From Spirulina subsalsa FACHB-351 (lineage in GTDB: Bacteria > Cyanobacteriota > Cyanobacteriia > Cyanobacteriales > Spirulinaceae), in contig NZ_JAIHOM010000008.1 of assembly GCF_026130165.1 (NCBI RefSeq), positions 1-64,000 of the forward strand: a stretch of 64,000 nucleotides of DNA, in the 5' to 3' direction. The notes below the pieces were generated by a model. That model had not been told where the DNA came from. It was given only the letters and a program-made list of their open reading frames with translations, and searched no databases. Each line of letters starts with the position of its first letter. Position 1 is the first letter of the stretch. A program made the translations under genes and the position numbers. Below are positions 379-56,118 of the stretch, piece after piece.

Positions 379-3354
379 ATGAAACTAGGGCAGATTCTCA
401 AGAAACGCTACGGGATTACCCATCGTTTGGGTAAGGGAAGGTTGTGTCAAACTTACTTAGCGGAGGATTTGCAGTTACCGGGGAATCCCCAGTGTGTGGT
501 GAAGGTGTTTCGCTTACAGGCCAAACACCCGAAAATTGTGCGGTTGGCCCGGCGGATTTTTGAGCAGGAGTCGGGTATTTTGAAGCAGTTGGGGCAGGAG
601 TCGCCCTTTGCGGAGGTTTTGGATGCTTTTGAAGGGGATCACACTTTTTTTTTAGTGCAGGAGTTTATTAAAGGGGAAAGTTTTGGGGAGCAATTGGTGC
701 CGGGTCAACCTTGGACAGAATCCCAAGTGGTGGGGTTTCTGCTGTCGAGTTTAGAGGGGTTGGCGATCGCACATCAACAGAATATTATCCATCGGAACCT
801 CAAGCCCAGTAACTTAATCCAGCGCCAAAGTGATCAACAGTGGACCGTGATCGACTTCGGAGGAATGCGCCAAATCTGCGCCCTAGCGGTCAATTCTCAA
901 GGTCAAATTGGCATGAAAGGGCTCCTGAGCCATCCGGGGTATTTCCCGGGTTCAGAACGGCGCAAACCGACCTGTAGCAGTGATCTCTATGGCTTAGGGG
1001 TGATGGCGTTACAGGCCTTAATGGGGGTTGCACTGAAAGACCTACCGAAACCCTCTCCCGAGTCTAGCGAGATTCTCTGGCGGGAGCATCTGACCATTAG
1101 TGACCCCCTCGCCCAAGTGTTAGCCCAAATGGTCGCCCCAGACCCCCAAGAGCGTTATCCTTCGGCCAGTGATGCCCTACAGTGGTTACGGGGGACGGTG
1201 ATTACCGTCGCTTCCAATGACGACACATTAATTGAAGTTCCCACCGCTTCCCCCCTCATTGCCCCACCCCTCACGGTGGCGGAATTACTGCGAGAAGACC
1301 CCAAAGAGCCTCCCCTGTTAGCTGGACGCTATCGGATTTTAGAATCTTTAGGAAAAGGGGGTTTCGGCACGACCTTTTTAGCGGAAGATCGCCAAATGCC
1401 AGGTCATCCGCGCTGTGTGGTGAAACAGCTTAAACCCTATCGCACGACACCAGCGGCCTTAAAACTCGCTCGTCGTCTTTTTGACAGTGAGGCTCAAGTT
1501 TTAAGTCAATTGGGGCGACATCCCCAAATTCCCCAACTCTTAGCCCACTTTGAGGAAAATAACGAGTTTTACCTAGTGCAGGAATACATCGAAGGTCACG
1601 ACTTGGAGAAAGAACTCCCTCTGGGTCATAAACTGGATGAATTAACGGTGATTGCCCTGTTGCGGGATATCCTACAAGTTCTCAAGTTTGTGCATGATCA
1701 AAAGGTCATTCACCGAGACATTAAACCCGCTAATATTCGACGACGAGAGGACGGAAAAATTGTTTTGATTGATTTTGGGGCAGTCAAACAGATTGGGGAA
1801 CATCTGGAAACCTTTGATAAAACCTTGCTAACGGTGAGTATCGGCACTCCGGGCTATATTCCGGGGGAACAGGCCCAGGGGAAGCCAAAACTGTCTAGTG
1901 ATGTGTATTCTGTGGGCATTATTGGCATTCAAGCCTTAACGGGATTGAATCCCGAATATTTAAAGGAACACAAAAAAACCGGGGAGTTGCGCTGGCGAGA
2001 TCATGCGACGGTTAGCCCCTATTTGGCGAAAATTATTAACAAAATGGTGCGTTATGATTTCCGTCACCGTTACCCTTCGGCGACGGAAGCGCTGGCGGCC
2101 TTAGATGATTTGTTGGCTCATCCCAATAAACCTGTTATCTCCCTGACTTATTGGTTAACCTGGCTAGAGGATAATCGGGTGTTGGGGGGGATTGGCATGG
2201 CGATTATTGCCCTGGCCTCGGCGTTTTTGGCTTTGTCTCTTTTTCCGGGGGCTCCGGAGTTGAATTTGAGTCCGGCGAATCCGGTGGAGGAAGCTGGTAG
2301 TGGGGAGTCTGGGGAAGGGGGGGCCGAAACTATGACCTTGCCCCAACTTCCGAGTCGGCAAATGGTGGCGTTACCCTTTGAGGAGGTGGTGGATGCTCAA
2401 TACACTATGCGGGAGGGGATTGTGGTGGTGGGGAATAATCCCAATCAATTGTATTTGTATTACCCTCGCTCGCGGCGCAGGGTGAGGATTAATTTGCCGG
2501 GGGCGCCTCTGATGGTGTCGATTAGTCCGAATGGACAGTTTGCGGTGGTGGGGCATCAAGATAGTTTGTCTTGGGTGAATTTACAACGGGAACAAATAGA
2601 GAAAACTCTGCCCCTTCCCCATCCGCCGTTTCATCTGGTTTTGACGGATCGGAATTGGGTTTATGGGTCTTTGGCGAATCATCAGCCGTTGTTTGCGGTT
2701 GATTTGAATAGTGGGGAGGAGATTTTACTGTCTGACTCGCGCCATTATGGGGAAACGGTGTATGTGTTGGATGGTTCACAAAATAATCTCTATGGGATTG
2801 TGAAGGGGGAGGACCGCAACAGTGCGATTTTGCGTCAGGTGAATATTGCCCAAGGTGGGCCTGTTTTTGGCAGGGATACGCCGATTCGGGCGGATGTTCC
2901 GGTGGGGCAACCTGTGGGGTTTTTACAGGATGGTCGTTTATTGACCAGTAATGGGGTTTTATTGGGGGTTGCTCCGACGGGGGAGGTGCGTGAGGTGCAG
3001 AAGTTGGAGGGGGCGCAAAGTCCGATGTTTAATGTGCGGACTCGCTGGATTGGGTCGGATCGGCAGAAGATTTTACTGGGGTTACATGGGGAGAGAATGA
3101 ATCCCGAGGAGTTTAATCGTTTGTCTTGGTGGTCTTACAATGAGTTAACGCCTCGTAAAACCTATGAGTTACCCCCTCTGGGGAATCAACCTGAAGCTCC
3201 TGCAACTTGGAGTAATTTTGTGTTTATGAATCATCAGGGGGAGCAGTTTTATGTGATTTTGCAGGGTCGGGAGTATCATGTGCGCGATCGCCTCACTGCT
3301 CCGGAACAATATAGTTTGCTCATCGGTAGAATAGAAGATATTGTCGCTCGTTAA
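379..3354 (+). CDS. Membrane-anchored tandem Ser/Thr kinase: pseudokinase plus kinase plus exported beta-rich domain
   Basis: A 991-residue protein with two consecutive eukaryote-type kinase domains. The first (about 10-270) keeps the VK lysine (K42) and DFG (159-161), but its catalytic loop reads HRN (138-140) instead of HRD, so it lacks the catalytic Asp and is probably a pseudokinase. The second (about 317-575) has a GKGGFG loop, K349, HRD (445-447) and DFG (465-467), and looks active. A single membrane segment lies at about 601-623, and the remaining 370 residues should be outside the cytoplasm; they contain WD/propeller-like blocks such as SISPNGQFAVVGHQD. The CHAT gene follows 106 bases downstream on the same strand, so co-transcription is likely. 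The substrate is unknown. The fold of the C-terminal domain is inferred from composition only. Confidence 0.9.
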   Translation: MKLGQILKKRYGITHRLGKGRLCQTYLAEDLQLPGNPQCVVKVFRLQAKHPKIVRLARRIFEQESGILKQLGQESPFAEVLDAFEGDHTFFLVQEFIKGESFGEQLVPGQPWTESQVVGFLLSSLEGLAIAHQQNIIHRNLKPSNLIQRQSDQQWTVIDFGGMRQICALAVNSQGQIGMKGLLSHPGYFPGSERRKPTCSSDLYGLGVMALQALMGVALKDLPKPSPESSEILWREHLTISDPLAQVLAQMVAPDPQERYPSASDALQWLRGTVITVASNDDTLIEVPTASPLIAPPLTVAELLREDPKEPPLLAGRYRILESLGKGGFGTTFLAEDRQMPGHPRCVVKQLKPYRTTPAALKLARRLFDSEAQVLSQLGRHPQIPQLLAHFEENNEFYLVQEYIEGHDLEKELPLGHKLDELTVIALLRDILQVLKFVHDQKVIHRDIKPANIRRREDGKIVLIDFGAVKQIGEHLETFDKTLLTVSIGTPGYIPGEQAQGKPKLSSDVYSVGIIGIQALTGLNPEYLKEHKKTGELRWRDHATVSPYLAKIINKMVRYDFRHRYPSATEALAALDDLLAHPNKPVISLTYWLTWLEDNRVLGGIGMAIIALASAFLALSLFPGAPELNLSPANPVEEAGSGESGEGGAETMTLPQLPSRQMVALPFEEVVDAQYTMREGIVVVGNNPNQLYLYYPRSRRRVRINLPGAPLMVSISPNGQFAVVGHQDSLSWVNLQREQIEKTLPLPHPPFHLVLTDRNWVYGSLANHQPLFAVDLNSGEEILLSDSRHYGETVYVLDGSQNNLYGIVKGEDRNSAILRQVNIAQGGPVFGRDTPIRADVPVGQPVGFLQDGRLLTSNGVLLGVAPTGEVREVQKLEGAQSPMFNVRTRWIGSDRQKILLGLHGERMNPEEFNRLSWWSYNELTPRKTYELPPLGNQPEAPATWSNFVFMNHQGEQFYVILQGREYHVRDRLTAPEQYSLLIGRIEDIVAR

Positions 3355-3460
3355 TCGACTGACGGGTGGAAACATTTCCCGTTTAAAGTTCATCAAAGCT
3401 TCTATCAGCATTTTGTCTGGTTCTTTTGGGACATTTGCGCCTAGCCAATAGCCACTTACT

Positions 3461-5821
3461 ATGTTTCAGGAATTCCAACTTTCCGTTACGCCTTTGGGTC
3501 AAGATCACTATCTGGTACGCACGGAACAGGTTGCATCGGGTGTTCCTCTGGCGGAGGAACAGGTCTACTGGTCTGTTGAGGATTGGTTACAACAAGCAGG
3601 ACAGTTGATGGATGATCCGATGTTCCGCTTGTTTCAGGATCAGGATTCTCTGGCGACGGAGTTTTTATTTATTACGGGACAGTTGCCTGCGGGGGCGACG
3701 GAGGAGGTGAGTCCGAGTTTGGTGGAGTTGGGCCAACAGCTTTATGATGCGCTGTTGCAGGGCAGTTTACGGGATAGTTGGATGATGGCTCAGGCGATCG
3801 CCCATAATCAACGGTCGGTGTTACGTTTTCGCTTGGGTCTTAAGGGTTCTCGGCTGTTGCGTTTGCCTTGGGAGGTGTTACATGGGGGCAGTCGGGACAC
3901 GGGTGGGGTGTTTCGTCCGTTGTCTACGGGACCGGATATTGCCTTTTCTCGTTACCAGATTGGCACAGCTTTAGGCTCGGATCGTTTCAGTTTCCCCCAA
4001 AAGCCTCGGCAACCTCTACGGGTGTTGATGGCGATCGCGAGTCCGGAGGATCAAGACAGTCTCGCCCTTCACCAAGAAGCGTTACAGCTACAAGCGGAAC
4101 TCCAACCCCCAGATCCGGATCTCCCTCCTAATATTGAACTCACCCTTTTGGAACAACCGGGACGGGCTGAATTAACTCAAGCGTTAGAACAGGGGAACTA
4201 TCAGGTATTTCACTATGCTGGACATAGCAATTTAGGGGAGTCGGGGGGGGATGTTTATTTAGTCAGTCGCACTACGGGCTTGACGGAAAAACTCTATGGT
4301 CAAGATTTGGCGGGGTTATTGGTGAATAATGGGATTCAATTGGCGGTGTTTAATTCCTGTCGGGGGACGGATACGGCGTTAAATCCCAAGGACGATAATC
4401 AAACGAATCTGGCTCAGGCTTTGGTCAATCGGGGGATTCCGGCGGTTTTGGCGATGGCGGAGCGCATCCCGGATGAGGTGGCCTTGACCTTCACGCGGTT
4501 ATTCTACCGCAACCTTGACCAGGGTTATCCCATTGATTTAAGCCTCAGTCGCGCTCGACAGGGTTTAATTTCGGCCTATGGGTCTAATCAACTCTATTGG
4601 GCGCTGCCAGTCCTCTATTTGCATCCAGAGTTTAATGGGGTGTTGATTCCCTCTCCTGCACTGCCGGATCCTTTTGATTTGGAGGATCCTGATGATCTGC
4701 CCTTGGGGTTTTTGACGGGGGATGAGGAGGAGATGGATGGGGATTCCTATTTGGAGGATGACCCCTATTTGGAGGATCTGGATCCTCTGGAAACGGAGGA
4801 GGAGGATGAGGAATTTTTGGCGGATTTGGTGGCTACGGCACGGATAACTTCTCGGGAGGAAGAGGATGATTTTTTGCGTCCGGCCAAGGCTGAGAGTGAT
4901 GAGGAGGATTTAAGTTTTATTCAAGATGTGCTGAGTGAAACGCCGTCAGTGGTGACTCCTCCCTCTCCTGTGACTCCTCCCCCGAGGGAAACTCCTGATA
5001 GTCCCCCTCAACGGAGTTTTTCTCTGGCGGGTTTGTGGGGGGGTATGTTGGCGATGGTGTTAATGTTTGGGGGGGTCGTTTGGATTTGGGGGCGGATTTA
5101 TTACCCAAGTTTCTTTTCTAATCCTTTGGATGCTTTACTGACGAGGGATGATCCGGTGGATCTGGATCGTTTGGATTTAACGGCTGTCAGTACGGAACAG
5201 TTGACGAGTTTTGCCATTGAGCAGTTTAATCGGGGGGAGATTGGGAAGGGTGCGATCGCGGTGGAAACGTTGTTAGATCGCAATGTCTTGAGTCATGGGG
5301 CTTCGGTGTTGGCTGGGGTGAAACCGGAACAACGAGATGCTCCCGAAATTCTCTTTTTATTGGGTCGTTTAGCTTGGCAGTCGGTGCAGATTGGGGATAG
5401 TCGTTACAGTGTTTCTGATGCGCGGCGTTACTGGTCTACGGCGATTGAGAAAGCTCCTCAGAGGGTTGAGTATTACAATGCTCTCGGTTTTGCTTACTAT
5501 GCGGAGGGCAATTATGACCAAGCTAATCAGACTTGGTATGATGCCCTAGAATTGCTGGATCCGCAAATGGTGGGAAGTGTTGATGAGACGGGGGATCGGA
5601 CAACGCTCAACACTTATGCTGGATTGGCGTTAGGTTTGCAAAAACTGGCGGAGAATCAAACGGGGGATGCTCGGACTACTCTGCTCAATAAGGCCTATAA
5701 GTTGCGTCAAACGGTGATGAATCAAGATCCGTTGGGGTTTCAGGTGACGCGATTGGCCCAAGATTGGTTATGGACGGAATCGGCGATCGCAGACTGGCAG
5801 AGTTTGGCTTCTCTGGATTAG
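3461..5821 (+). CDS. CHAT-domain (caspase-like) single-pass membrane protein
   Basis: A 786-residue protein. The CHAT domain spans about 90-395 and ends in the family's YWALPVLYLHPEF. The catalytic dyad is visible as H255 in HYAGHS and C300 in FNSCRGTD. An acidic Asp/Glu-rich linker (about 400-490) and a Pro-rich stretch lead to one membrane segment (about 523-548). The C-terminal 230 residues resemble TPR repeats (YYNALGFAYYAEGNYDQA) and should lie outside the cytoplasm. CHAT proteins are cysteine proteases related to caspases and separase; some are HetF-like regulators and some act in immunity. Placement behind the tandem kinase, which has the same cytoplasm-membrane-exterior layout, suggests a shared pathway, which is inference. 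ATG at 3461 was chosen because the frame is open and the N-terminus is intact. Confidence 0.9.
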   Translation: MFQEFQLSVTPLGQDHYLVRTEQVASGVPLAEEQVYWSVEDWLQQAGQLMDDPMFRLFQDQDSLATEFLFITGQLPAGATEEVSPSLVELGQQLYDALLQGSLRDSWMMAQAIAHNQRSVLRFRLGLKGSRLLRLPWEVLHGGSRDTGGVFRPLSTGPDIAFSRYQIGTALGSDRFSFPQKPRQPLRVLMAIASPEDQDSLALHQEALQLQAELQPPDPDLPPNIELTLLEQPGRAELTQALEQGNYQVFHYAGHSNLGESGGDVYLVSRTTGLTEKLYGQDLAGLLVNNGIQLAVFNSCRGTDTALNPKDDNQTNLAQALVNRGIPAVLAMAERIPDEVALTFTRLFYRNLDQGYPIDLSLSRARQGLISAYGSNQLYWALPVLYLHPEFNGVLIPSPALPDPFDLEDPDDLPLGFLTGDEEEMDGDSYLEDDPYLEDLDPLETEEEDEEFLADLVATARITSREEEDDFLRPAKAESDEEDLSFIQDVLSETPSVVTPPSPVTPPPRETPDSPPQRSFSLAGLWGGMLAMVLMFGGVVWIWGRIYYPSFFSNPLDALLTRDDPVDLDRLDLTAVSTEQLTSFAIEQFNRGEIGKGAIAVETLLDRNVLSHGASVLAGVKPEQRDAPEILFLLGRLAWQSVQIGDSRYSVSDARRYWSTAIEKAPQRVEYYNALGFAYYAEGNYDQANQTWYDALELLDPQMVGSVDETGDRTTLNTYAGLALGLQKLAENQTGDARTTLLNKAYKLRQTVMNQDPLGFQVTRLAQDWLWTESAIADWQSLASLD

Positions 5822-5941
5822 GGGAATAGGGAATAGGGAATAGATAATTGATAATTAATAATTTATTAATTATTAATTGATAATTGCTCCCCTGCTTCCC
5901 TGCTTCCCTCTTCCGACTCCCGGACTTATTCAGGAAACCCT
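5822..5941. repeat. Short tandem repeats and one end of a family B element
   Basis: Directly after the CHAT stop codon come GGGAATA heptamers, then ATTGATAATT-type AT repeats, then CCCTGCTT units. The stretch ends in GACTCCCGGACTTATTCAGGA, close to the family B end seen at 203-218 and 32262-32276. The partner end is not visible, so this is a partial or decayed copy lying between the convergent CHAT and dndC genes. Confidence 0.55.
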
Positions 5942-7541
5942 AATTCTCCTCAGAAGATCCAAATTTCAGGTTAGCCCAGTCATTGCTGGGGGGAATGGCC
6001 TGAGCGCGGACGAGGGTTTCTTTCAGTTTGGCCATATCTTCCTTTTCGATGGCTTCTTTGATATCCCATTTATAGTGAGCGTGTTGGATAGCCTCTTCTT
6101 TGGAACGAGAGGAGGTTTCAAAACATTTTTCAAGGTCGCCTAGGATTCCGGATCTGCGGGCTTTCGTGTAATATTTGCGTTCAGTTCCTAGTAGTTTGCT
6201 CATCAGTTCAAGGTGCATGGCATCTTCCCCACAGATATCCGCGAGAGTTGCCCATTCGTCAGGGCCGAGGATACTATGATCATCGGCTCCGGGGCGAGGA
6301 TCTACAAAAGTTTTTCCGGTAACTTCTTTATAAATGCGGGGGACACTATCATCAAATTCGTATTTTTCTTCTACCCAAATCCGTCGAATTTCGCTGAGTT
6401 CTTCGGTGGTAATCAGGATGATATCTTTCATATCATCGGGGGCCGTTTGACGGATGGTTTCTTGGGCTTGTAGGACTCGTCTGAGCCAATGTTCTCGCCA
6501 ATATTTAGTATAAGGCCCCGGAATCGGTTCTACAGATATTTCTCCGTTAACATTTCGCTCAAATAGTTCTACTCGTCCATGCAAGCGCCGAAAGTCCCTT
6601 TTTTCTCGATCATCCTGAATGTCTAAAGCATTCCGTATATCTAGAAGGGGTTGTAGCCATTCCTTTTCATGATCATTTTGAATCATAGCCTCCATTGATT
6701 TATCCTTACTCACCATTGTGCAAACCCAACAACCAAACCGCGAACTTCCACAACTGGGGGTAGATGTATCGACAACTAGAGGACAATCATTATCAGCACT
6801 TGCACCTCGATACATCGACAATAGATCATTGTTGTCAATTCCCCAAGGATTTTGATATTGCATTAAATACACCCAAACTTCATCATTTCTCCAATCTTCA
6901 ATAGGTGTATAAACTAATGAATTTGTTAGACTAGCATTTGGGCTAAGACGCTCCCGAACACGCTTAAGTTGATGCTTTTCCATTGTTCTTGCACGCTGCG
7001 AACTTTCAGCTTTTCGCGTTCCTAAAACAAGGATTGTCTCTCCATTTAATCTGACAATATTTCTAATAAAACGATTAGCAGGATTGATCTTTAACCGTTC
7101 AGTACACCAACGAAATTGGTTTCTAGGTGCTGGATATCCTTTACCAATTAAGCAAACAAAGAACCTATCTTTAACATCAGGAAATAGCAAATGTGGTTCA
7201 ATGGGCATACCTTGATTCTTTGCCGATACTTTCATTGTCTCTAATGATTTTCTAACCCATTGAGAAACAATAGGATTCTCAACTTGAGTATCAGTAGATA
7301 TAACATAAATTGGCTTGATCCTTCCTTCTTTAGGTATTTGGGAAATTGCATTCCATATTAGTTGAAGGGTTGCTGTGCTATCTTTACCGCCTGAATAACC
7401 AATAACCCAAGGAATTTGATCTAATAAATATAAATCCTTAACTTCTTGAGATAATCTTGCTATATCTTCGATTAGTTCGTCTAGGGTTCTAGGTGGAAAT
7501 ATGGACGGTTGAATGCTTATCATGTGACCTACGAATCTCAA
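5940..7541 (-). CDS. dndC: DNA phosphorothioation sulfurtransferase DndC
   Basis: A PP-loop (PAPS reductase-like) protein of 533 residues. The nucleotide-binding motif SGGKDS is at 50-55. A C-terminal cysteine group that includes CGSSRFGCWVC is the expected iron-sulfur ligand set of DndC. In Dnd systems DndC activates the DNA backbone for replacement of a non-bridging oxygen by sulfur, working with DndD, DndE and a cysteine desulfurase. It is divergent from dndB with an 88-base gap. The start is ambiguous: a second ATG at 7523 (residue 7) has AGGT eight bases upstream and may be the true start. The 5' half of the gene is visibly more AT-rich than the 3' half. Confidence 0.93.
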   Translation of the reverse strand: MRFVGHMISIQPSIFPPRTLDELIEDIARLSQEVKDLYLLDQIPWVIGYSGGKDSTATLQLIWNAISQIPKEGRIKPIYVISTDTQVENPIVSQWVRKSLETMKVSAKNQGMPIEPHLLFPDVKDRFFVCLIGKGYPAPRNQFRWCTERLKINPANRFIRNIVRLNGETILVLGTRKAESSQRARTMEKHQLKRVRERLSPNASLTNSLVYTPIEDWRNDEVWVYLMQYQNPWGIDNNDLLSMYRGASADNDCPLVVDTSTPSCGSSRFGCWVCTMVSKDKSMEAMIQNDHEKEWLQPLLDIRNALDIQDDREKRDFRRLHGRVELFERNVNGEISVEPIPGPYTKYWREHWLRRVLQAQETIRQTAPDDMKDIILITTEELSEIRRIWVEEKYEFDDSVPRIYKEVTGKTFVDPRPGADDHSILGPDEWATLADICGEDAMHLELMSKLLGTERKYYTKARRSGILGDLEKCFETSSRSKEEAIQHAHYKWDIKEAIEKEDMAKLKETLVRAQAIPPSNDWANLKFGSSEEN

Positions 7542-7595
7542 TTTTTTAAAGTTTTGTTTTATTGACTGGTAATTTTGACCAAAAAGGTGTAAACT

Positions 7596-7647
7596 ATGCT
7601 GAGTATTTATACAAATGTATTAAGTGTATATGTCTGATACTCAGCAT
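7596..7647. promoter_or_regulatory. 11-bp perfect inverted repeat spanning the dndB start
   Basis: ATGCTGAGTAT (7596-7606) and ATACTCAGCAT (7637-7647) are perfect inverted repeats separated by 30 bases. They lie in the dndC/dndB divergent region and cover the dndB start codon at 7630. DndB proteins are known repressors of dnd transcription, so an operator is plausible. An mRNA hairpin that masks dndB translation is an alternative. Confidence 0.5.
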
Positions 7648-8799
7648 CCCCACAATATAACAGAACCCCGTCTTGATAATGTACTGGATCATTACTTTTC
7701 CCAATATCATCGGGAGAAGTGCTATGTAGGCCTTGTATTTCAGCAAGGGAAGCGCAAAATGATACAAATTAACATTCCTGCGCATGATTTACCAGTTCTG
7801 TTACAAGCTAAACCATCTACTGGTAATGATCCCGACTCCGGGAAAAATCGCCCGGAAGTGAAAGGTCATGCAGAAGAGGTGAAAGAATATATTTTAAAGC
7901 GTGTCCGAAAAAATAAGCCCTGGATTTTAGGAACATTAACAGCCAATGTCGATCCCAGTAAAATACACATACATCAATTGGGAAGAGGACTTTGCTTTAT
8001 TGTGATTCCTCGTGGTGTTAAACTTGATATTACTGATGGTCAGCATAGAAAGAGTGCAATTCATGACCTCATAGAAAGTGCTGATAGTGAAATGATTGGT
8101 GATAATGATTTTCCGATCACGTTAGTTTTAGAAGGTGACTTTAATCAGTGTCAAACAGATTTTAGAGATATGGCACAAACACGCTCTCTAGATCCATCAC
8201 TTTTATTGTCATTTGGTGCTTCTGAAGGGACTATAGGAATTACAAAGAACTTGATACAAAAAGTCCCAATGTTTTATGAAAAGACTGAACGAATTAAATT
8301 AACTCCATCTTCTAAACAAAAGCTAATTTACACTACTAATTACATTGCAAAGGCTGTAAGTTATATCTTTTCTGGAACTCCAGATCATACTCTAGAAGAT
8401 ATTGATGTTGATCATTCATCAGAAGCCTTAATTAACTGTTTTAATCAGTTTTTTGGAGAATGTACATTGACTCGGTACATATTTGAAACCGACTGGGAAA
8501 ACTTGACCGTTGATGATGTAGTTAATTTCAAAAATACCTGTATATTGGGGAGAAGTGCTGGATTAGAAGTATTAGGTCGATTATTACATTGTATCTACGA
8601 TTCTGATCTCGATATGTTTAACCCTAACTTAATCTCAAAAATAGCTCAGTTAGATTGGTCAATGGGTAGTTTGTTATGGCGTGATAATATTGTTAGAAGA
8701 GATCCTAATAATCCCAAAAAACCCTACAAAATTTCCGCAAATGCTAGTCCAATTAGGATGGCTGTTCAAGAAGCAAAAGCAGCATTAGGCTGGCAATAA
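7630..8799 (+). CDS. dndB: DndB, DGQHR-domain regulator of DNA phosphorothioation
   Basis: A 389-residue protein with the family signature DGQHRKSAI around residue 138 and the following DFPITLVLEGD segment typical of DGQHR proteins. DndB is not needed for sulfur transfer; it represses dnd genes and changes modification frequency or site choice. An in-frame GTG lies two codons upstream at 7624; ATG at 7630 is preferred. The gene is AT-rich compared with dndD. It is divergent from dndC and convergent with the small gene at 8820-9236, so dndB is transcribed alone. The inverted repeat 7596-7647 overlaps its start. Confidence 0.92.
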   Translation: MSDTQHPHNITEPRLDNVLDHYFSQYHREKCYVGLVFQQGKRKMIQINIPAHDLPVLLQAKPSTGNDPDSGKNRPEVKGHAEEVKEYILKRVRKNKPWILGTLTANVDPSKIHIHQLGRGLCFIVIPRGVKLDITDGQHRKSAIHDLIESADSEMIGDNDFPITLVLEGDFNQCQTDFRDMAQTRSLDPSLLLSFGASEGTIGITKNLIQKVPMFYEKTERIKLTPSSKQKLIYTTNYIAKAVSYIFSGTPDHTLEDIDVDHSSEALINCFNQFFGECTLTRYIFETDWENLTVDDVVNFKNTCILGRSAGLEVLGRLLHCIYDSDLDMFNPNLISKIAQLDWSMGSLLWRDNIVRRDPNNPKKPYKISANASPIRMAVQEAKAALGWQ

Positions 8800-8819
8800 A
8801 TAGCAATCTCTCCAAAAAG

Positions 8820-9236
8820 TCAAGTTATTGTTACAACCTGCAATAACTTGACAATATCATTCTGAATCTGACTCCCGATCTTTCCCTCCCAACGCTTCTG
8901 TAAAACCCTTAAACCTGCCTCAGCATACTCCATGACCCGTTCCGCCAACTCCTGACTATCCCGAGGTTCAGACTGTCCATTCTGCTTACAAAGGGCATAA
9001 ACTCCCGCTTCCAACGCTAACCGTACATCGCGATCAATACTACCAAAAACGATAATTTCGTGACGACCACCACCCACCAGAGAAACCCTCTCAAGATTCT
9101 GTTTCATCGCATAAGCGGCCGCGAATAAATAACCATCAACCATTCTGGCAAAAACCCGCTTATCAACTAAAACCTTGAGATAAGCATTGGCCTTAGAGCT
9201 AGATCGAATTCTAGTCGTAACATCTAAATGATACAT
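8820..9236 (-). CDS. Small Dnd-associated protein in the DndE position
   Basis: A 138-residue soluble protein whose ATG overlaps the dndD stop codon (TAATG), so the two are translationally coupled. It occupies the place where dndE follows dndD in other systems, but I do not see the DndE-type LCR..F..SL core. The N-terminal half (RIRSSSKANAYLKVLVDKR, then VDGYLFAAAYAMKQ) is more reminiscent of small dnd system-associated proteins, recalled from memory and not searched. It may substitute for DndE, which binds nicked DNA, or be an accessory factor. The association with Dnd is firm from coupling; the biochemical role is unknown. Confidence 0.8.
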   Translation of the reverse strand: MYHLDVTTRIRSSSKANAYLKVLVDKRVFARMVDGYLFAAAYAMKQNLERVSLVGGGRHEIIVFGSIDRDVRLALEAGVYALCKQNGQSEPRDSQELAERVMEYAEAGLRVLQKRWEGKIGSQIQNDIVKLLQVVTIT

Positions 9237-11212
9237 TACCCCTCCCTCTCAATCTTAGAAGCGTCTTCCGTTGCGCCTAAACGATGAATGTGGAAAATTT
9301 CCGCCACATGGGGCTTAATCTGCTGGAACAGATCCCCCTGAAAATCCCGATCCGTAGCCAAAAGAATCACCTGAGAAGGAAGATGAGGCAATGCCCCCAC
9401 AATATTACGCTGATGTTCCACATCCAAATGTCCAAAAGGCGTATCCATCACCAACGGAGCCGCCGTATTAGAAGCCAAATTTAACCCCGTAATAAACGCA
9501 AAAGCTAAAGCCTCCTTCTCCCCCGCGCTCAGAATTTCTGGACTCAAAATCCGCCCCAACACCGTCCTAACCCCTAAAGTATAATCCGGCCGTACCTCTA
9601 TCCCATTGTACTCCTCCGGCTTGTTCGTCACCCGCCGATGTATTTCAGAAGTCTTCTCCTCAATCGTGGCCTTGCGTTCCCCAATACGCCACAGAATCAA
9701 CTCCTCCGCCACCGCATATAAACGCAGCGCCATTTTCAACTGTTGAGCTAAAGTCACCGTTTCCTCATCTCGCCCGGCCAACTGCTCCACCTCCCGATAG
9801 ACCTGATTTTCCCGCTTGCTCAAATCCTCTAACTGCCGTTCAATGTGTCGTAACTTCTGCTCATATTCCTCCCCATCCCTCTGCGCTTGGGCAACCTTAC
9901 GCCAAATCTCTTGGGCCTCCTGTTCACTAACTCCCTGTGTCTCCCGCCTCAAGCGGTTAATACGCTGTTCTAATTCCCCAAGGTCTTCCTCAAGGCGATC
10001 GCGATCCTCCAACACCCGATCCAAACTCCAATCCCGATAGCGCGATAAACGCACCAAACGATTTCTTAACTCATCTTGCTCCAAATCCGTGGGACTGCCC
10101 GCCCCCATCACCCGTTCCAACTGTTCCAACTCCCGCAGAATATGCCCCCGCGCCTCCTCATCCAAACAACGACCACAGACACAAATCTCCGACTTTAACA
10201 ACTCCCGCAAATGCTTGACCGACCCAGACCGTCGCGCCGTCGTCACCGTCCGACCTTGCAAATCCTGCACCACCTCATCCACCAAACCCAATAGTAAGGG
10301 AATCGGAGCCGTTCTCAAGGTTTCCTCTACTTTCCGTTCCCCCTCATACAGTCGTTGCTTCAAACGCTTACAATCCAACTCACAACGCCCTAACTCCTCT
10401 AACTGACCCTTCAATCCCTCTACCTGTGCCGCCCTCCCCTGGGCCTGTTGATAATTCCTCCGCGCTGCCTCTAGGTTTTGCTGCATCAGGTTTTTTTGTT
10501 CCTGCTTCGTGCTTAACTGATCCCGTATTTCCTGCAATTCAGCATTTTTAGCCTGTAATTGTTGATTCCGTTCACTAGCCTGGTTTAGTTCCTTTTGGAA
10601 TTCTGCAACCGCCTTCTTACTATCATCTCGCAAGTTTTTTAGTTCAGGAATGCCTAAAATTCGTTCAATGGCGTTCTTCGTTTCTGGAGTGTGGGTTAAC
10701 TTAGCATAATGTTGAATTTCTACCCCATCAAAAAAGAAAAATTCCCGACACATTCGCGGCAAAAGATAATCAATCCACTCTTGGGAATCATTGCGCTTAA
10801 CCCCATTGCGGTATAGAACAGGGTCTTGGACTTCCACATAAACGGTTTCTTCCCGTAACTTCTGTTGCGCTGAACGGGTGATTAAATAAATATCCCCTTC
10901 TGGGTCTTCTCCTTCCGTCTGGGTATTGCAAGAAGGTTGATTACTCGCTGATAAGGTTATTTCTACACGAAGCTCTAAGTTGGGATCGCTCTGGACGGCA
11001 AGGCGGTTAAAGTAACTCAAAAGGATATTCTTTTTAACCACAAGATCACCATATAAACACCATCGAATTGCTTCTAAAAGTGAGGTTTTTCCGTAACCAT
11101 TTTGACCAAAAATAATCCAAATATTTTGCTGGGAGGTGAGGTCAAATTGCAGGATTTCCTCTTGATAGACTTTCCAGTTTTTGAGATAGATTTCTTTGAT
11201 TTTCAGGGGCAT
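9236..11212 (-). CDS. dndD: DndD, SMC/Rad50-like ATPase of DNA phosphorothioation
   Basis: A 658-residue ABC-type ATPase with a long coiled coil. The N-terminus carries Walker A GQNGYGKTS. The central coiled coil is broken by a zinc-hook-like CVCGRC. The C-terminal lobe has the signature LSAGEKEALA and Walker B LVMDTPFGHLD. In Dnd systems DndD supplies ATPase and DNA-nicking-related activity. The frame stays open 17 codons further upstream (to 11263), but that extension is translated from a family A inverted-repeat element, so the start is placed at ATG 11212, where the SMC-type MPLKIKEIYLKNWKVY begins. The next gene is coupled through a TAATG overlap. Confidence 0.93.
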   Translation of the reverse strand: MPLKIKEIYLKNWKVYQEEILQFDLTSQQNIWIIFGQNGYGKTSLLEAIRWCLYGDLVVKKNILLSYFNRLAVQSDPNLELRVEITLSASNQPSCNTQTEGEDPEGDIYLITRSAQQKLREETVYVEVQDPVLYRNGVKRNDSQEWIDYLLPRMCREFFFFDGVEIQHYAKLTHTPETKNAIERILGIPELKNLRDDSKKAVAEFQKELNQASERNQQLQAKNAELQEIRDQLSTKQEQKNLMQQNLEAARRNYQQAQGRAAQVEGLKGQLEELGRCELDCKRLKQRLYEGERKVEETLRTAPIPLLLGLVDEVVQDLQGRTVTTARRSGSVKHLRELLKSEICVCGRCLDEEARGHILRELEQLERVMGAGSPTDLEQDELRNRLVRLSRYRDWSLDRVLEDRDRLEEDLGELEQRINRLRRETQGVSEQEAQEIWRKVAQAQRDGEEYEQKLRHIERQLEDLSKRENQVYREVEQLAGRDEETVTLAQQLKMALRLYAVAEELILWRIGERKATIEEKTSEIHRRVTNKPEEYNGIEVRPDYTLGVRTVLGRILSPEILSAGEKEALAFAFITGLNLASNTAAPLVMDTPFGHLDVEHQRNIVGALPHLPSQVILLATDRDFQGDLFQQIKPHVAEIFHIHRLGATEDASKIEREG

Positions 11213-11244
11213 ACGGGAAAAATATCTAGGGGTTAGTACCAGTA

Positions 11245-11346
11245 TATAGCGTTTCCAAATCATTGATGAACTCTAAGACCAGTTTCTCATAATACTTCAA
11301 GCTCCTTGTAACCCTTGTATACTGTTCCCTGCTCCCTATTCCCTAG
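11245..11346 (-). mobile_element. Family A inverted-repeat element, partial copy upstream of dndD
   Basis: The TATAGCGTTTCC end lies at 11245-11256. It is followed by the family A core (AATCATTGATGAACTCT, CTCATAATACTTCAAGCTCC, CCCTTGTATAC) and a few GGGAATA-type units on the opposite strand. The far end is not seen. The element begins 33 bases upstream of the dndD ATG and extends the open frame of dndD. Confidence 0.75.
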
Positions 11347-20232: not shown

Positions 20233-22101
20233 ATGCAGTCTCCTCTTGAAGCTCAAACGGTTCTCAATCAAAGGTATCGGGTCTTACGGGTCTTAGGTCA
20301 AGGCGGTTTCGGTCGCACTTATCTGGCGCAGGATGAGGGTCGATTTAATGAATTGTGTGCGATTAAGGAGCTATTTCCTAATCAAAGTGATCCCGATGCG
20401 ATCGCCAAATCTAAAGAATTGTTCCAACGGGAAGCCAGTACCCTGTATAAAATCCAGCACCATCAGATCCCCCGCTTTCAGGCGACGTTTGGGGAAAATG
20501 GACGCTTGTTTATTGTCCAGGACTATGTGGAGGGGAAAACCCTTCAGGAGTTGTGGGAGGAGCGACGACGGGAGGGGAAACGGTTTGAGGAGGAGGAAGT
20601 CCGGCGACTGGTGGAGCAGTTGTTACCTGTTTTGGGCTATTTACATGGCCAGGGGATTATTCACCGGGATTTGTCGCCGGGGAATGTGATTTTACGAGAG
20701 CGCGATCGCCTTCCGGTGTTGATTGATTTTGGGGTGGTGAAGGAGTTGGCTAGTCGTATTCGTTCGGCTGATGGTCAAACGGCCTTAACGACGGTGGGAA
20801 AGGTCGGTTACGCGCCCCCAGAACAGATCCAAACGGGTCAAGTTTATCCCAACAGCGACCTGTATGGGTTAGCCGTGACGGCGGTAGTGTTGTTGACGGG
20901 GAAACCGCCCAATGAGTTGTTTGATGGGGTGAATTTGCGCTGGCAATGGCAACGGGAGGTTGAAGTGAGTCAGCCCTTAGCTCGGGTGTTCAATCGGATG
21001 TTAAGTTATCGGCCCGGCGATCGCTTTTCTTCCGTGGAGGCCGTGCAAAGTGCCTTAGCAGAAGCACCACAGCCTCCACCAACCGGGAGCGCGCCCACGA
21101 TGGCCCCGGTGTCCCAAGTGGCGACTATTGCCGTGGGGGGGGCGCCCTCTCGTCCCACTCCTCCCCCTCCCGCTCGCCCAGATCCGGTTATTCCCCAGCC
21201 TCAAACCGACTCCCCCTTCAGCAGTTCCACCGCCATTGTGGGGTTAACGGTGTTAATTGGTGCGATCGCAGGATTGACCACTTGGGGCATTGTCATGGTA
21301 TTCAATCGTCCCACTCCTCCCCCTCCCCCAGTCACAGAAAGCCCTTCCCCCAGCCCCAGTCCCGAACCTGAACCCTCCCCAGAAACCATCGAGCAAGCCG
21401 TTCAATTACGGGCCGGCGAGGTTTTCTCCGAACGGGGACAACTGGCAGACTATATGACCTTAAATTACCGTTTACGGGGAGAAAATAACCAACGCCTAAC
21501 CGCCTTTGTCGAAAGTAACGGCGTGTGGTTTAGCGTTTTGAATCCTCAAGGAGAACTGATAGCCCCCAACGCTCGACGGGTGCAAAGTTGGCAGGGGTCC
21601 CTTCCCACCACGGGGGACTATATTGTTCAATTAAGTCCCATTCCAGGAGCGACAGAACGGAATTATCGGGTGGAAATCCGTTTAGAGGCCGCCCCTGCCC
21701 CCTCCCCTTCCCCTTCTCCCTCACCCTCACCTTCCCCCTCACCCTCACCTTCCCCCTCCCCTTCTCCCTCCCCAGAAGAACCCACCTATGACAGCCAAAC
21801 CTTAGAAATTCCCCCCACCTCGGAGGGAGTTCCCATTGCGGTGCGAGGTGAAACCAGTCCCACCACCATTAAGCGGTATTTAGTGGAAGTGGAGGCCAAC
21901 CAGGTGTTAAAAGTGGAAGTCATGCGCGGAGGGGTGACATTGCAGATTCGCCGTCCTGATGGTCGTATTATTCCCGATGCGGAGGGGATTCTCTCTTGGG
22001 AAGGGCAAGTTCCTACGGGGGGATTGTACCAAGTTGATGTCATAGCCTCAGAGTCGGCGAATTTCTTGCTGAATGTGGGGGTGCAAGAGATCCCAGAATA
22101 G
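20233..22101 (+). CDS. Membrane-anchored Ser/Thr kinase with Pro-Ser repeat and PPC-like exterior domains
   Basis: A 622-residue protein. The kinase domain (about 14-275) has the loop GQGGFG, K45, HRD (144-146; HRDLSPGN, the cyanobacterial variant with Ser in place of the usual Lys) and DFG (165-167). A Pro-rich juxtamembrane stretch precedes one membrane segment (about 334-357). Outside the membrane are two PPC-like beta domains, separated by a low-complexity run of alternating Ser and Pro (about 489-515) encoded by CCCTCA/CCTTCC repeats. PPC-type domains often bind ligands or carbohydrate, so this is a plausible surface sensor. It stands alone between prs and the membrane-protein gene. Confidence 0.92.
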   Translation: MQSPLEAQTVLNQRYRVLRVLGQGGFGRTYLAQDEGRFNELCAIKELFPNQSDPDAIAKSKELFQREASTLYKIQHHQIPRFQATFGENGRLFIVQDYVEGKTLQELWEERRREGKRFEEEEVRRLVEQLLPVLGYLHGQGIIHRDLSPGNVILRERDRLPVLIDFGVVKELASRIRSADGQTALTTVGKVGYAPPEQIQTGQVYPNSDLYGLAVTAVVLLTGKPPNELFDGVNLRWQWQREVEVSQPLARVFNRMLSYRPGDRFSSVEAVQSALAEAPQPPPTGSAPTMAPVSQVATIAVGGAPSRPTPPPPARPDPVIPQPQTDSPFSSSTAIVGLTVLIGAIAGLTTWGIVMVFNRPTPPPPPVTESPSPSPSPEPEPSPETIEQAVQLRAGEVFSERGQLADYMTLNYRLRGENNQRLTAFVESNGVWFSVLNPQGELIAPNARRVQSWQGSLPTTGDYIVQLSPIPGATERNYRVEIRLEAAPAPSPSPSPSPSPSPSPSPSPSPSPSPEEPTYDSQTLEIPPTSEGVPIAVRGETSPTTIKRYLVEVEANQVLKVEVMRGGVTLQIRRPDGRIIPDAEGILSWEGQVPTGGLYQVDVIASESANFLLNVGVQEIPE

Positions 22102-22348
22102 AAAAAACCGGGTTTTGGGGATAATTCGGGCAAAAAACGAGCCAATCTTGACCATTTCACGCGCTCTGACCTGTTGTCAAGGGGGGTGTGGGGGCTTAAC
22201 GGATCAGTCATCGTGCCATGGTGAGGGAAAGTAAGTAATCCTACTCCCTGGGCGTGAATCCCCCCCATCTCCCCATCGACTTATGTTATAAGGGGAATAT
22301 GGGTTAGTTCAGACCTTCGTGATAGGAAGCAATTCCCTCTATTTTGTG

Positions 22349-23689
22349 ATGACTCCTAATGCAACAACTTTAATGAAAACCGTCGAACAACTGGGCTACC
22401 GAGTCACAGTCGGCGATGTTGCGGCCAAAGCAGGATTAAATGTTAATTTAGCTCAACAAGGTTTATTAGTTTTAGCCTCTGATGCCGGAGCCAATTTACA
22501 AGTTTCCGAGTCCGGTGAAATTGCCTATGTTTTTCCGAAAAACTTTCGGGCAATTTTGCGCAATAAGGACTGGAAACTGAGATGGCAAGAGACTTTAAGC
22601 AAAATTTGGCAGTTCTTATTTTATCTCATTCGCATCTCCTTTGGAATTTTATTAATTATTTCTATTGTTTTAATTGTTACGGCAATTATTGTTATTTTAA
22701 TCGCATTAAATAGCAAAGAAAATGGCGGATCAAGAAATTCTCGCTCGTCGAGTTATGGGGGATTAAGGTTTATCTTTGTTCCCCGATTTTGGTACGTTTC
22801 GGATGTATTCTGGCTCTTGAATCCCCGAGCTAACTATAGCACTGGTCAACAAAAAAGATACAGACAAAGACAATTAGCTAGGTCTAGTCAACAGCAAGAG
22901 ATGGGTTTTCTAGAGTCGGTATTCTCATTTTTGTTCGGAGAAGGTGATCCTAATTATGATTTAGAGGAACGACGCTGGCAGCAAATTGGGGCAGTTATTC
23001 AACGCAATAAGGGCGCGGTCATTGCTGAACAAATTACGCCCTATTTTGAAGGACTGGATCGGGTGGTATTAGAGGATGAAAGCTATATGCTGCCAGTTTT
23101 AGCCCGTTTCAATGGCTATCCTGAAGTGTCGGAAGAAGGGGAGTTAATTTATTATTTTCCTGAGTTACAAGTTACGGCGAAAAAATCCAATATCAGCAAA
23201 CCGGATAAGTATTTACAGGAAAAACCTTGGCGTTTTAGTAGTGCTACTCGGGAGCAACTCAATTTAGCTGGAGGTCTAGGCTTTGTTAATATTTTGGGTG
23301 GATTGGTCTTAATGTTTCTGCTTTATGAAAATCCTGCCTTAGTGGCTGAGATTGGCTTTTTGGCTTGGATTAATTCCATTTCTTGGCTACTCTTGGGCTA
23401 TGGGGCGTTATTTTTGTTAATCCCTGTTGTGCGGTATTTTTGGATTCAGCGTAAAAATCAGGTGATCAATCAACGGAATAATGAGCGATCGCAATATTTT
23501 AAAATCCTCAAAAATGCGAATCAAAAAATCAAGCAGAAACTGGTTCAGGCTAGACAGTTTGCCAGTCAGCACATTCTGAGTGAGCAAGATTTAGCCTATA
23601 CAACAGAAACGGATCTGTTAGACCAGAATTTGCAGCAGGTGGATAAAATTGACGAAGAATGGCGGAGACGACTAGAGGGAGAGAGTTAG
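22349..23689 (+). CDS. Conserved-looking membrane protein coupled to dnaE-C
   Basis: A 446-residue protein I do not recognise by function. The N-terminal 70 residues look like a small winged-helix or repeat domain (VEQLGYRVTVGDVAAKAGLN), and a similar block, AVIAEQITPYFEGLDRVVLE, recurs around residue 220. There is a strongly hydrophobic segment at about 85-120 and two more at about 310-375. The C-terminus is a charged helical tail. The frame also opens at GTG 22319; ATG 22349 is preferred because the similarity-like N-terminal domain starts there. Its stop is only six bases before the dnaE-C start, suggesting an operon and coupled translation. A role in replication is not implied. Confidence 0.8.
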   Translation: MTPNATTLMKTVEQLGYRVTVGDVAAKAGLNVNLAQQGLLVLASDAGANLQVSESGEIAYVFPKNFRAILRNKDWKLRWQETLSKIWQFLFYLIRISFGILLIISIVLIVTAIIVILIALNSKENGGSRNSRSSSYGGLRFIFVPRFWYVSDVFWLLNPRANYSTGQQKRYRQRQLARSSQQQEMGFLESVFSFLFGEGDPNYDLEERRWQQIGAVIQRNKGAVIAEQITPYFEGLDRVVLEDESYMLPVLARFNGYPEVSEEGELIYYFPELQVTAKKSNISKPDKYLQEKPWRFSSATREQLNLAGGLGFVNILGGLVLMFLLYENPALVAEIGFLAWINSISWLLLGYGALFLLIPVVRYFWIQRKNQVINQRNNERSQYFKILKNANQKIKQKLVQARQFASQHILSEQDLAYTTETDLLDQNLQQVDKIDEEWRRRLEGES

Positions 23690-27967: not shown

Positions 27968-29452
27968 ATGCCATCTAGAAACAATAAGCTGGTCAATCAG
28001 GTCATTTTAGGGTCCATTGCTTTCTCTCTCAGCTTTGGACTGGGACTCTTGCTGAGTCGGGAGTTTAAGCAGGGGGTGTTAACGGGGATTGCAGCACTGC
28101 CGGGGAGTTATGGCTGTGCGATCGCACTTTATCGCCAACGGGTACAACAGGACAAGAAATTTAAACAAGGTCTACACCATCAAATCCAGTTGCTGCGACA
28201 ACAACGGGAGTCTTGTCATCAAGAAATGGCGATCGCACTCAATCAACAACAAAACCTAGAATCTAATCTCCATGCCTTATACAGCGAACGAGAACAGATT
28301 TTAATGCGCGTGGCTGAACTTCATCAATACCGGAAAGAGTTGTATCAGTCCCTCCCCACTCCAGAGCAAAAAACCTTGCAGGGAACAAGTCCTTGGCAGT
28401 CCCCCCAACTTCAAGCAGCCCCCGATCATCCCGTAGAATTTAAGCGGGGAGGAGTAGCACATAGGATTTTAGTCCAGAAAAGCGAAGACCGCTTAGAACA
28501 GCTACAAAGTGAATATGATCAGTTACAAAAGCAGATTTTAGCCCAACAAAATAAGCGGGAGCAACTGATTCCTGAGTTAACTCAACTCAGTCGGCAAAAA
28601 TATAAACTGAGTCAAGACCTGCAAAACTTACAGGATGAAGTGAAAGACCTGCAAAACTTTCAGGAAAAATTAAGTCAATCCCTAGCAGAATTAGAACTAC
28701 AACGTGAATATAATGATGAGCAGCTTTTTCACAAAGAAGCAAGACGAGAAGGACTAGAGTTAGAAATAGAAAATCTAGAGAAAATTTTGCTAGAAAAACA
28801 GGAAACTTGGCAAAATATTGAGCCTAAAATGCTACAATTGGAAAGTTTACAGGCAGAGGTAGTCAAACTTGAGAACAATAAATCTAGTTTAACCACCGAA
28901 CTCCATCAGTTAGCGGAAGATAAGCGCCGTTTAAGCTTAGAACTGAATCAGTTAGAACAAAATAAATCTACCTTGACCACTGAACTCCATCAGTTAGCGG
29001 AAGATAAGCACAGTCTAAGCTCAGAACTGAGTCAGTTAGGGCAAGAAAAGCAGAGTTTAAGTGCAGAACTTGCCCAGTTAGAAGACCAACTCACAACCCC
29101 CATTCTAACGACTTCCAACCCAACAAAACCCAATTCTTTTCCCGAAGAATGGCTTGACTTTTTACACAATTTATGCTTACCAGAACAGCAAACCTTAAAG
29201 GCGATTTTAGACGAGGATGAAGACCACTTAAAACAACTAGCGGATCAGATGACAACCATGCCCGAAGTATTAATTGATGCTCTGAATGAAAAAGCCTTAA
29301 ATACCATCGGCGACACCTTCTTAATCCGCCAAACATTAACCCTTCTACCCACCATTGATCCAGAATATCTACCCCTGTTTAGCCAACCCATCACCCTGCA
29401 ATTGCAAGACCTTTTGACCCTGATCCATTCAACCCATGCAGAAAATTCCTAA
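27968..29452 (+). CDS. Membrane-anchored long coiled-coil protein with small C-terminal helical domain
   Basis: A 494-residue protein. Two hydrophobic segments at about 10-55 form a hairpin anchor, followed by about 330 residues of coiled coil. The coil contains an internal duplication of 28 residues (NKSSLTTELHQLAEDKRRLS and NKSTLTTELHQLAEDKHSLS, an 84-bp DNA repeat at 28877 and 28961). The C-terminal 110 residues (LPEQQTLKAILDEDEDHLKQ, then MPEVLIDALNEKALNTIGDT) resemble the TerB_C domain found in Ter-linked stress and defence operons; this is from memory. Its last 17 bases overlap the start of the ATPase gene, so the two are coupled. Confidence 0.85.
   Translation: MPSRNNKLVNQVILGSIAFSLSFGLGLLLSREFKQGVLTGIAALPGSYGCAIALYRQRVQQDKKFKQGLHHQIQLLRQQRESCHQEMAIALNQQQNLESNLHALYSEREQILMRVAELHQYRKELYQSLPTPEQKTLQGTSPWQSPQLQAAPDHPVEFKRGGVAHRILVQKSEDRLEQLQSEYDQLQKQILAQQNKREQLIPELTQLSRQKYKLSQDLQNLQDEVKDLQNFQEKLSQSLAELELQREYNDEQLFHKEARREGLELEIENLEKILLEKQETWQNIEPKMLQLESLQAEVVKLENNKSSLTTELHQLAEDKRRLSLELNQLEQNKSTLTTELHQLAEDKHSLSSELSQLGQEKQSLSAELAQLEDQLTTPILTTSNPTKPNSFPEEWLDFLHNLCLPEQQTLKAILDEDEDHLKQLADQMTTMPEVLIDALNEKALNTIGDTFLIRQTLTLLPTIDPEYLPLFSQPITLQLQDLLTLIHSTHAENS
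28877..29044 (+). repeat. 84-bp tandem repeat inside the coiled-coil gene
   Basis: Two 84-bp units start at 28877 and 28961 with only a few differences, giving 28-residue (four-heptad) protein repeats. A shorter third block beginning near 29041 keeps the AEL and QLE heptad pattern. The length is an exact multiple of seven residues, so coiled-coil register is preserved. Confidence 0.8.
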
Positions 29453-30749
29453 ACGAGTCTCCACTGCCTTAATCAACGCTTTAGCGGCCGGAGTAGTCCC
29501 CCGGATTGGGTTAGAACATATTGCCGTCGGTCGAGAATTGGAAATTAGTGCGATCGCCCAAGACCTAGAAAACATCAGCGAAGGGGGGGCAGGTTTTCGC
29601 TTCGTCGTTGGGCGCTACGGAGCCGGGAAAAGCTTTATGCTGCAACTGATCCGCCACCTCGCCATGGAACAAGGATTTGTCGTAGCCGATGCCGATCTCT
29701 CCCCAGAATTGCGTTTAGCAGGCAGTAAAAACCAAGCCGTAGCCACCTATCGGGAATTAATGAAAAACATCGCCACCCGCACCTCTCCCAAAGGGGGGGC
29801 TATTTCCCTAATCCTCGAAAAATGGACCAGTGGCATCCTCTCCCAAGTTGCCCAAACTACCGGAAAACGACCCGGAGAGGAAGGATTTGATGATCAAGTA
29901 GAACTAAAAATCCGGGAAGTCGTAGATCATCTAGAAGGATTAGTACATGGCTTTGATTTTGCCAACGTTATTATTGCCTATTGGCGGGGCTATCGGGAAG
30001 ATAATCAAGATAAACAAGACAGTGCTTTAAAGTGGTTACGAGGGGAATTTAGCAGCAAAACCGAAGCCAGAACCGCCTTAGATGTGCGGGTGATTATTGA
30101 CGATGAAACTTGGTATGATTACCTAAAACTTTGGGCTAAATTTGCTTCAGATATCGGCTATAAAGGCTTAATAATCCTGTTAGATGAAGCCATTCATCTC
30201 TATAAAATCTCTCATAGCCGTTCTCGGCAAGGGAACTATGATCGACTCTTGGCCATGTTTAATGACACCATGCAGGGGAAAGCGGAATATTTAGGCGTAA
30301 TTGTCGGCGGAACTCCCCAACTCATAGAAGATAAACGACGGGGGTTATATAGTGATGAGGCATGGCGAACCCGTTTAGCTAAAAGTCGCTTTCACCAAGA
30401 CGGTTTACAAGACTATTCTGGTCCAGTGATAGAACTAGAACCCCTCACCTCTGAACAACTCTCCCAACTCTTGCAACGCTTGATAGAAGTTCATGCCCAA
30501 CATTTTAAATATCAAAGCCCATTAAGCACAGCCGAAATTGAAGATTTTAAACAAGAAGTGACCAATCGCTTAGGAGCAGATAAGCTTTTTACCCCTCGTG
30601 AATTAGTCCGCGATTTTATGAGTTTATTAAATATTTTACAACAAAATCCTCAAGTCAATTTTAGGGACTTTATTCACAGTCCAGAATTTAAACTAGAAGC
30701 GGTAGAAATGAATCATCATTCTGACGAATTTGCAGAATTTACGTTGTAA
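29436..30749 (+). CDS. P-loop ATPase of the DUF2791/BrxD type
   Basis: A 437-residue protein. It starts with the family's RVSTALINALAAGVVPR and IAVGRELEI segments, then Walker A GRYGAGKS (59-66) and Walker B LIILLDEAIHLY. The C-terminal part has a sensor-like VIVGGTPQL and an arginine-finger region. Relatives of this ATPase are found next to TerB_C proteins and in BREX systems (BrxD). Here only the coiled-coil membrane protein accompanies it; no helicase, methyltransferase or PglZ gene is in the neighbourhood. The ATG lies inside the upstream gene (17-base overlap). A stress or defence role is inferred from family context only. Confidence 0.88.
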   Translation: MQKIPKRVSTALINALAAGVVPRIGLEHIAVGRELEISAIAQDLENISEGGAGFRFVVGRYGAGKSFMLQLIRHLAMEQGFVVADADLSPELRLAGSKNQAVATYRELMKNIATRTSPKGGAISLILEKWTSGILSQVAQTTGKRPGEEGFDDQVELKIREVVDHLEGLVHGFDFANVIIAYWRGYREDNQDKQDSALKWLRGEFSSKTEARTALDVRVIIDDETWYDYLKLWAKFASDIGYKGLIILLDEAIHLYKISHSRSRQGNYDRLLAMFNDTMQGKAEYLGVIVGGTPQLIEDKRRGLYSDEAWRTRLAKSRFHQDGLQDYSGPVIELEPLTSEQLSQLLQRLIEVHAQHFKYQSPLSTAEIEDFKQEVTNRLGADKLFTPRELVRDFMSLLNILQQNPQVNFRDFIHSPEFKLEAVEMNHHSDEFAEFTL

Positions 30750-55511: not shown

Positions 55512-56118
55512 TGCGCAGGAGAAATCAAAGATCATGGCTTAATTATCAATGATCAATGGTGATAGCGTCATGCCCCTAGCGGCAATTGGGGAAGAACCTG
55601 GGCAAAATGAACTAAGGAGGATAGGAGATGGGGACTGGACATCTGTTCTGTAGCTATTACAATGAGTGAAGACCCTAGCGCGTTCTCTGTTGATCTTGAG
55701 GGAGAGAGAAACACTTTCCCGAGCTGATACCAGATTATTGCTCCCCAGATTATTGCTCCTTGGGGGGAGTAGAGAAGTTTCCCCTACTGGGTTAAGGAAG
55801 CTATTGCGATCGCCCAATTCTAGGTTCTTGAAAGTTTCCCCAATGCCCTCACCCCGCTACGACAGCCACAACTACGCAAAGTCATGTTTTTGCCCAATCA
55901 TTTAGCTCCCTGCCGAGAAGCCCCGCGCCTTTAGGTCGGGGATTGTCCATAACGGTTTCGCTAAACTAATTTTGAGCGTATTAACCACGGAAGGAAGAGG
56001 AGAGCAGGTATTTTTGCCAGAAAAATCTCTCTGATCTCTCCAAATAAGAGAAATTGATTCTGTTCTGTTTTGAACGTCTGGGTCTGACAAATAGTCTACC
56101 TTTATATCGGTGTTCATC
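55512..56118. other. Gene-free region upstream of the glycosyltransferase
   Basis: About 600 bases without a convincing gene. The segment at 55916-55943 (AGCCCCGCGCC, TTTAGG, TCGGGGATT) resembles the hairpin at the right end of IS605-type elements, hinting at a relic, and the direct repeat CAGATTATTGCTCC occurs twice (55732 and 55747 approximately). Start of the glycosyltransferase transcript is probably near the 3' end. Confidence 0.4.

Follow-up and report, generated by a model that had tools for sequence, protein, structure and literature searches.

JAK is a eukaryotic chain that holds one degenerate and one intact kinase domain. Plant tandem kinase-pseudokinase proteins, of which Yr15 is an example, are likewise reported to join degenerate and intact kinase domains in one chain (PMC6170490). 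A limited search of titles and abstract openings returned no bacterial transmembrane pseudokinase-kinase of such a layout. As for HetF, a study in Anabaena presents this protein as a member of the divisome, draws it as a CHAT domain, a membrane segment and TPR, and reports loss of FtsI binding on changing the residues E130 and L278 (PMC8406250). HetF is said to cleave PatU3 in a review (PMC12288457), and another paper notes it in Arthrospira, a genus without reported heterocysts (PMC4365693); the accessible text of a paper on DGR and CHAT (PMC10907252) does not mention HetF.

In the window, by which we mean the whole 64,000-nucleotide stretch of Spirulina subsalsa FACHB-351 analysed here, a receptor kinase gene (379..3354, 991 aa) and a hetF homologue (3461..5821, 786 aa) follow each other on the forward strand, separated by a 106-bp gap (3355..3460) that is well conserved in the sister species. 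With a probability of about 0.74, we read them as separate membrane proteins, each conserved on its own, that adjoin in a single Spirulinaceae genus, namely a receptor kinase with a cis-regulatory pseudokinase and a HetF homologue. The window is the start of a contig (C240) in a genome of 5.26 Mb and 279 contigs, so nothing 5' of base 1 can be read, and a short G-rich repeat of the GGGGAGC type occupies this contig edge (1-60). Just 5' of hetF, the stretch 3390-3470 is near-identical in the sister species, above much of the coding DNA, and has no counterpart recognisable by eye in other genera; it may serve as the hetF promoter or 5' leader, and a promoter and terminator scan gave signals no better than those of shuffled sequence.

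Two Pkinase stretches were recognised by Pfam in the 991-residue protein. Domain 1 (residues 10-275; 406..1203) reads HRN at residues 138-140 (790-798), domain 2 (residues 313-582; 1315..2124) reads HRD at residues 445-447 (1711-1719), and both lysines (K42 and K349) and both DFG motifs are present. When seven full-length proteins, that of the window included, and one fragment were aligned end to end, the HRD aspartate of domain 1 was absent from all seven rows (HRN in four, HRA in two and HGN in one) and its VAIK lysine from five of the seven, the exceptions being the window and the sister species, and its DFG is replaced by DLG in that sister and by EFG in a further relative. Domain 2, on the other hand, kept the lysine, HRD, DFG and a Gly loop of the form LGxGGF in 8/8 rows and so has every feature of an active Hanks-type kinase, two of which, the HRD aspartate and the VAIK lysine, are missing from domain 1 across the family, apart from the lysine in the window and its sister. 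Within the window protein the two domains share 38% identity and, in a tree of 75 rows, each forms one group, with support of 100/99 in both cases, the domain-1 clade also taking in domain 1 of a fragmented Spirulinaceae genome (G302). Compared between both species of the genus, domain 1 had a dN/dS of 0.105, against 0.014 in domain 2 and 0.285 in the propeller; domain 1 is therefore less constrained than domain 2, yet still constrained. Beyond the kinase domains, the C-terminal part (residues 651-991; 2329..3351), which would be periplasmic, matched the beta-propeller 1l0q in a profile comparison (E 2e-13), and the window's own C-terminal domain alone had no Pfam match; a structure of the kinase predicted from the single sequence reached a pLDDT of 33.8 and was not used. 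Because the whole ORF is conserved in other Spirulinaceae and dN/dS against the sister species is low in both genes, the union of pseudokinase and kinase goes beyond chance, and judging from these motifs and alignments the first gene is a real pseudokinase-kinase receptor, as the sequence-only reading had claimed.

The family is narrowly distributed. Its C-terminal domain was found in 8/13 Spirulinaceae genomes, in 0/46 other relatives searched and in 1/291 genomes of the class, a set drawn from a larger group in which the single positive is the source genome itself. A pseudokinase profile recovered the same eight genomes at 404-473 bits, the next-best scores being 301 bits among the relatives and 307.6 bits in the class, all from ordinary kinases, although this profile was built from the family itself and its members therefore score high by construction. 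A tandem query, which matched mostly over domain 2, gave matches in 55/59 genomes at E up to 1e-60, and domain 2 is, by sequence similarity, a common cyanobacterial kinase type. Two kinase domains were present in 7 of the 67 kinase loci checked, which were the best matches plus the kinases of the genome itself and not a random sample; all seven belong to the pseudokinase-kinase family, and a broad class of tandem kinases was accordingly rejected. Some of the Spirulinaceae assemblies are fragmented: G301 and G302 are about 80% complete, and the kinase of G302 is split over two contigs.

The second gene had been described from sequence as a CHAT protein with an intact His-Cys dyad, and this description stands. 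The CHAT domain (residues 89-385; 3725..4615; Pfam E 2.1e-25) precedes a single membrane segment, which in turn precedes a TPR domain (residues 590-786; 5228..5818) identified by profile and model evidence, the order of domains being that of HetF. Hydropathy assigned one strong hydrophobic segment to each protein, also as proposed, at about residues 522-540 of the CHAT protein (5024..5080) and 601-619 of the kinase (2179..2235); which of their ends face the cytoplasm and which the exterior we infer. The sole NCBIfam family for the CHAT protein was NF045509 (HetF), matched over the full length at 813.7 bits against a cut-off of 1200, and for that reason we call it a HetF homologue and not an equivalog member. 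In the small set compared, this cut-off parts Nostocales from the rest, with two Nostocales proteins at 1418 and 1407 bits, Moorena at 912.9 and six other Spirulinaceae proteins at 699-832, and the second CHAT gene of the genome reached 181 bits over part of the model. H255 (4223-4225) and C300 (4358-4360) were invariant in 17/17 rows and in 30/30 of a larger alignment, and E138 and L283, the equivalents of Anabaena E130 and L278 by a numbering carried over from three Nostocales relatives, were likewise invariant in 30/30 rows. A model built from 30 sequences had a mean pLDDT of 68.4, and its CHAT part resembled the SAVED-CHAT protease 8tl0 (Z 20.8, rmsd 2.5, 193 aligned residues), separase (Z about 15, rmsd 4.6) and gingipain RgpB (Z 14.7, rmsd 4.9) among the matches listed by the fold search, further families being possible outside them. 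Matches at the level of HetF (E up to 1e-60) were obtained in 36/59 relatives and 13/13 Spirulinaceae genomes, and CHAT matches at E up to 1e-30 in 156/291 genomes of the class. HetR is present in the genome (253.8 bits, above its cut-off) and no NifH over its cut-off was found there (best match 215.8 bits vs 394.35), so that heterocysts are not expected and a role in cell division is the likeliest for this HetF. The CHAT protein is thus, by its alignments, a homologue of HetF, a known divisome protease; for the window protein, protease activity and septal localisation are putative, carried over from the reports on Anabaena.

Conserved co-occurrence of kinase and CHAT genes had been named as a check of the suggested pairing, with random neighbourhoods in relatives given beforehand as the outcome that would speak against it, and random neighbourhoods are what the relatives display. 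The kinase adjoins hetF in two of the eight kinase-bearing genomes, the source (G000) and its sister species (G291), both of one genus; in G294 the two genes are about 154 kb apart on the same contig, and in five others (G292, G296, G300, G301 and G302) they are on separate contigs. No HetF match was found in the stretches of 4 to 19 kb around these six unlinked kinases, beside or near which lie genes for an antiporter-like subunit, YgbB, phosphoglucomutase and an NYN protein. Conversely, hetF occurs without the pseudokinase-kinase in 5/13 Spirulinaceae and in all other genomes with a hetF match, and its neighbours differ among the other 11 Spirulinaceae genomes. Of 404 confirmed hetF loci, the best 80, all named and many from Nostoc, were checked: a kinase was the upstream neighbour in 0 of the 66 having an upstream ORF in the stretch (14/80 had none) and lay within three ORFs on either side in 5/80. 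On these counts a conserved kinase-CHAT pair was rejected, and of the idea of a caspase-like protease paired with a kinase, the protease half finds support in the cleavage of PatU3 reported for HetF and the conserved pairing finds none. As a separate observation, the hetF of G292 (L086:10920-16397) is divergently adjacent to a different, 1825-aa kinase-AAA-GAF-histidine-kinase protein.

A pair confined to the genus could still exist, in which the receptor kinase gates the septal protease by phosphorylating either HetF itself, perhaps in a juxtamembrane stretch rich in S/T-P, or a substrate of HetF. The genes are adjacent and co-directional, with the same 106-bp gap, in both species, both products are single-span membrane proteins, and the S/T-P-rich stretch precedes the HetF helix in both, all of which is consistent with such a pair; nevertheless, the separation of the two genes elsewhere and the many hetF genes without the kinase argue against it, and kinases are plentiful in this genome. 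With 34 kinase-like matches and about 4,800 genes assumed, the chance that a given gene has a kinase neighbour is roughly 1 to 2%, therefore one such adjacency needs no function, although its retention in both species leaves room for a functional link at the level of the genus. Nor does the shared topology, which had been taken as a sign of a link from signal to protease, by itself connect the two proteins. We regard this pair as unlikely, and regulation of HetF by the kinase as unsupported. Somewhat more doubtful is the proposal that domain 1 is alive in this genus, its HRN form binding nucleotide with weak or unusual catalysis, which would make the protein a two-kinase enzyme. The copy in the window retains K42 and D159, and the dN/dS of the domain is only 0.105; because K42 and DFG are kept, residual nucleotide binding or activity of the window pseudokinase is possible; the family-wide loss of the aspartate, the loss of the lysine in five of seven rows and the changes of DFG in the sister species and one more relative, however, point the other way. 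A further idea, that of a JAK-like layout in cyanobacteria in which an outer propeller drives a pseudokinase-gated kinase that, in one Spirulinaceae genus and beside hetF, phosphorylates it and couples the state of the envelope to septation through proteolysis, strikes us as a long shot.

The least probable reading, to which we give very little credence, is that of an immune or programmed-death module, where, on an island shared with Dnd, the kinase would sense infection and activate the CHAT protein. After hetF, four genes occupy 5940-11263 in an unusual order: DndC (-; 698.1 bits), DndB (+; 277.5 bits in Pfam), one for a 138-aa protein that weakly matches dnd_assoc_4 and one for a PbeC/DndD-like ATPase (-). 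DndC (77% identity) and DndB (63%) also lie beside hetF in the sister species, the 138-aa protein and the ATPase being absent from the stretch examined there, and DndC/DndB clusters appeared in no other stretch examined. CHAT proteases act as effectors in some defence systems, and defence-like genes occur further along the window: an SngA/SngB-like pair of the Shango system at 27968-30749 (PADLOC 44 and 592 bits; Pfam TerB_C and BrxC_BrxD) and an AAA protein with an IetA-like PADLOC match of 94 bits at 53886-55535. However, the CHAT protein is a class-wide HetF homologue that keeps the divisome residues, and its membership in a known family of divisome proteases, as reported for Anabaena HetF, removes the ground for an immune reading. 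Neither the kinase nor hetF keeps a defence neighbourhood elsewhere, the Dnd association being confined to the window and the sister species, and the genes from Dnd to 28 kb are mostly ordinary, with a histidine kinase, a cyclase, GGDEF, PRPP synthetase and kinase genes before the Shango-like pair (28-31 kb). Many PADLOC PD-T4-6 models match the receptor kinase over its kinase domains and also match another kinase of the window, as they would any kinase, and they were not taken as evidence of defence; together with the ordinary genes up to 28 kb and the non-defence neighbours of the kinase in other genomes, this led us to reject a defence cassette. Lying close to Dnd is not enough to assign hetF or the kinase to defence. 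A second kinase gene of the window (622 aa) precedes, within 20233-23689, a gene whose 456-aa product matched nothing in Pfam or PADLOC.

Returning to two separate proteins encoded side by side, we envisage that the extracytoplasmic beta-propeller of the kinase would sense an envelope or surface cue, which the single membrane helix would relay to two cytoplasmic kinase-fold domains. Domain 1, having lost catalysis, may regulate domain 2 in cis, whether allosterically, by docking or as a restraint, and domain 2 would phosphorylate the substrates. HetF would hold its CHAT cysteine-protease domain in the cytoplasm by way of one helix, with the TPR beyond that helix, and would be expected at the septum with FtsI, where it may help to build the septal wall by keeping inhibitory proteins in check, as reported in Anabaena.

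Compared with the described HetF of Anabaena and Nostoc (NF045509; PMC8406250), the window protein shares CHAT, one membrane segment and TPR, the His-Cys dyad, the E130/L278 equivalents and the spread across the class, and differs in a score below the curated cut-off, in a host without NifH over cut-off, hence with no heterocyst role expected, and in its DndC/DndB and kinase neighbours, found in this genus only. The SAVED-CHAT defence protease (8tl0) has the same protease fold, but the window protein lacks SAVED and has instead a membrane anchor, TPR and a class-wide distribution. The kinase, for its part, resembles receptor kinases of the PknB/StkP type in its cytoplasmic kinase, one membrane helix and outer domain, and among solved structures domain 2 is matched best by those of StkP type, but the protein adds an N-terminal pseudokinase and carries a beta-propeller in place of PASTA repeats. 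Unlike this bacterial protein, the JAK and Yr15 tandems belong to eukaryotic families, and the likeness is one of layout, compared at the level of the kinase fold. The kinase half contributes a bacterial receptor, limited to its lineage, where selection has retained an inactivated kinase copy next to an active one and degeneration advances step by step among relatives, so that the family offers a small natural series, from lysine plus HRN to fully degenerate, for testing the evolution of pseudokinase control. The protease half was already known; what is modestly new is the receptor half, a variant specific to its lineage.
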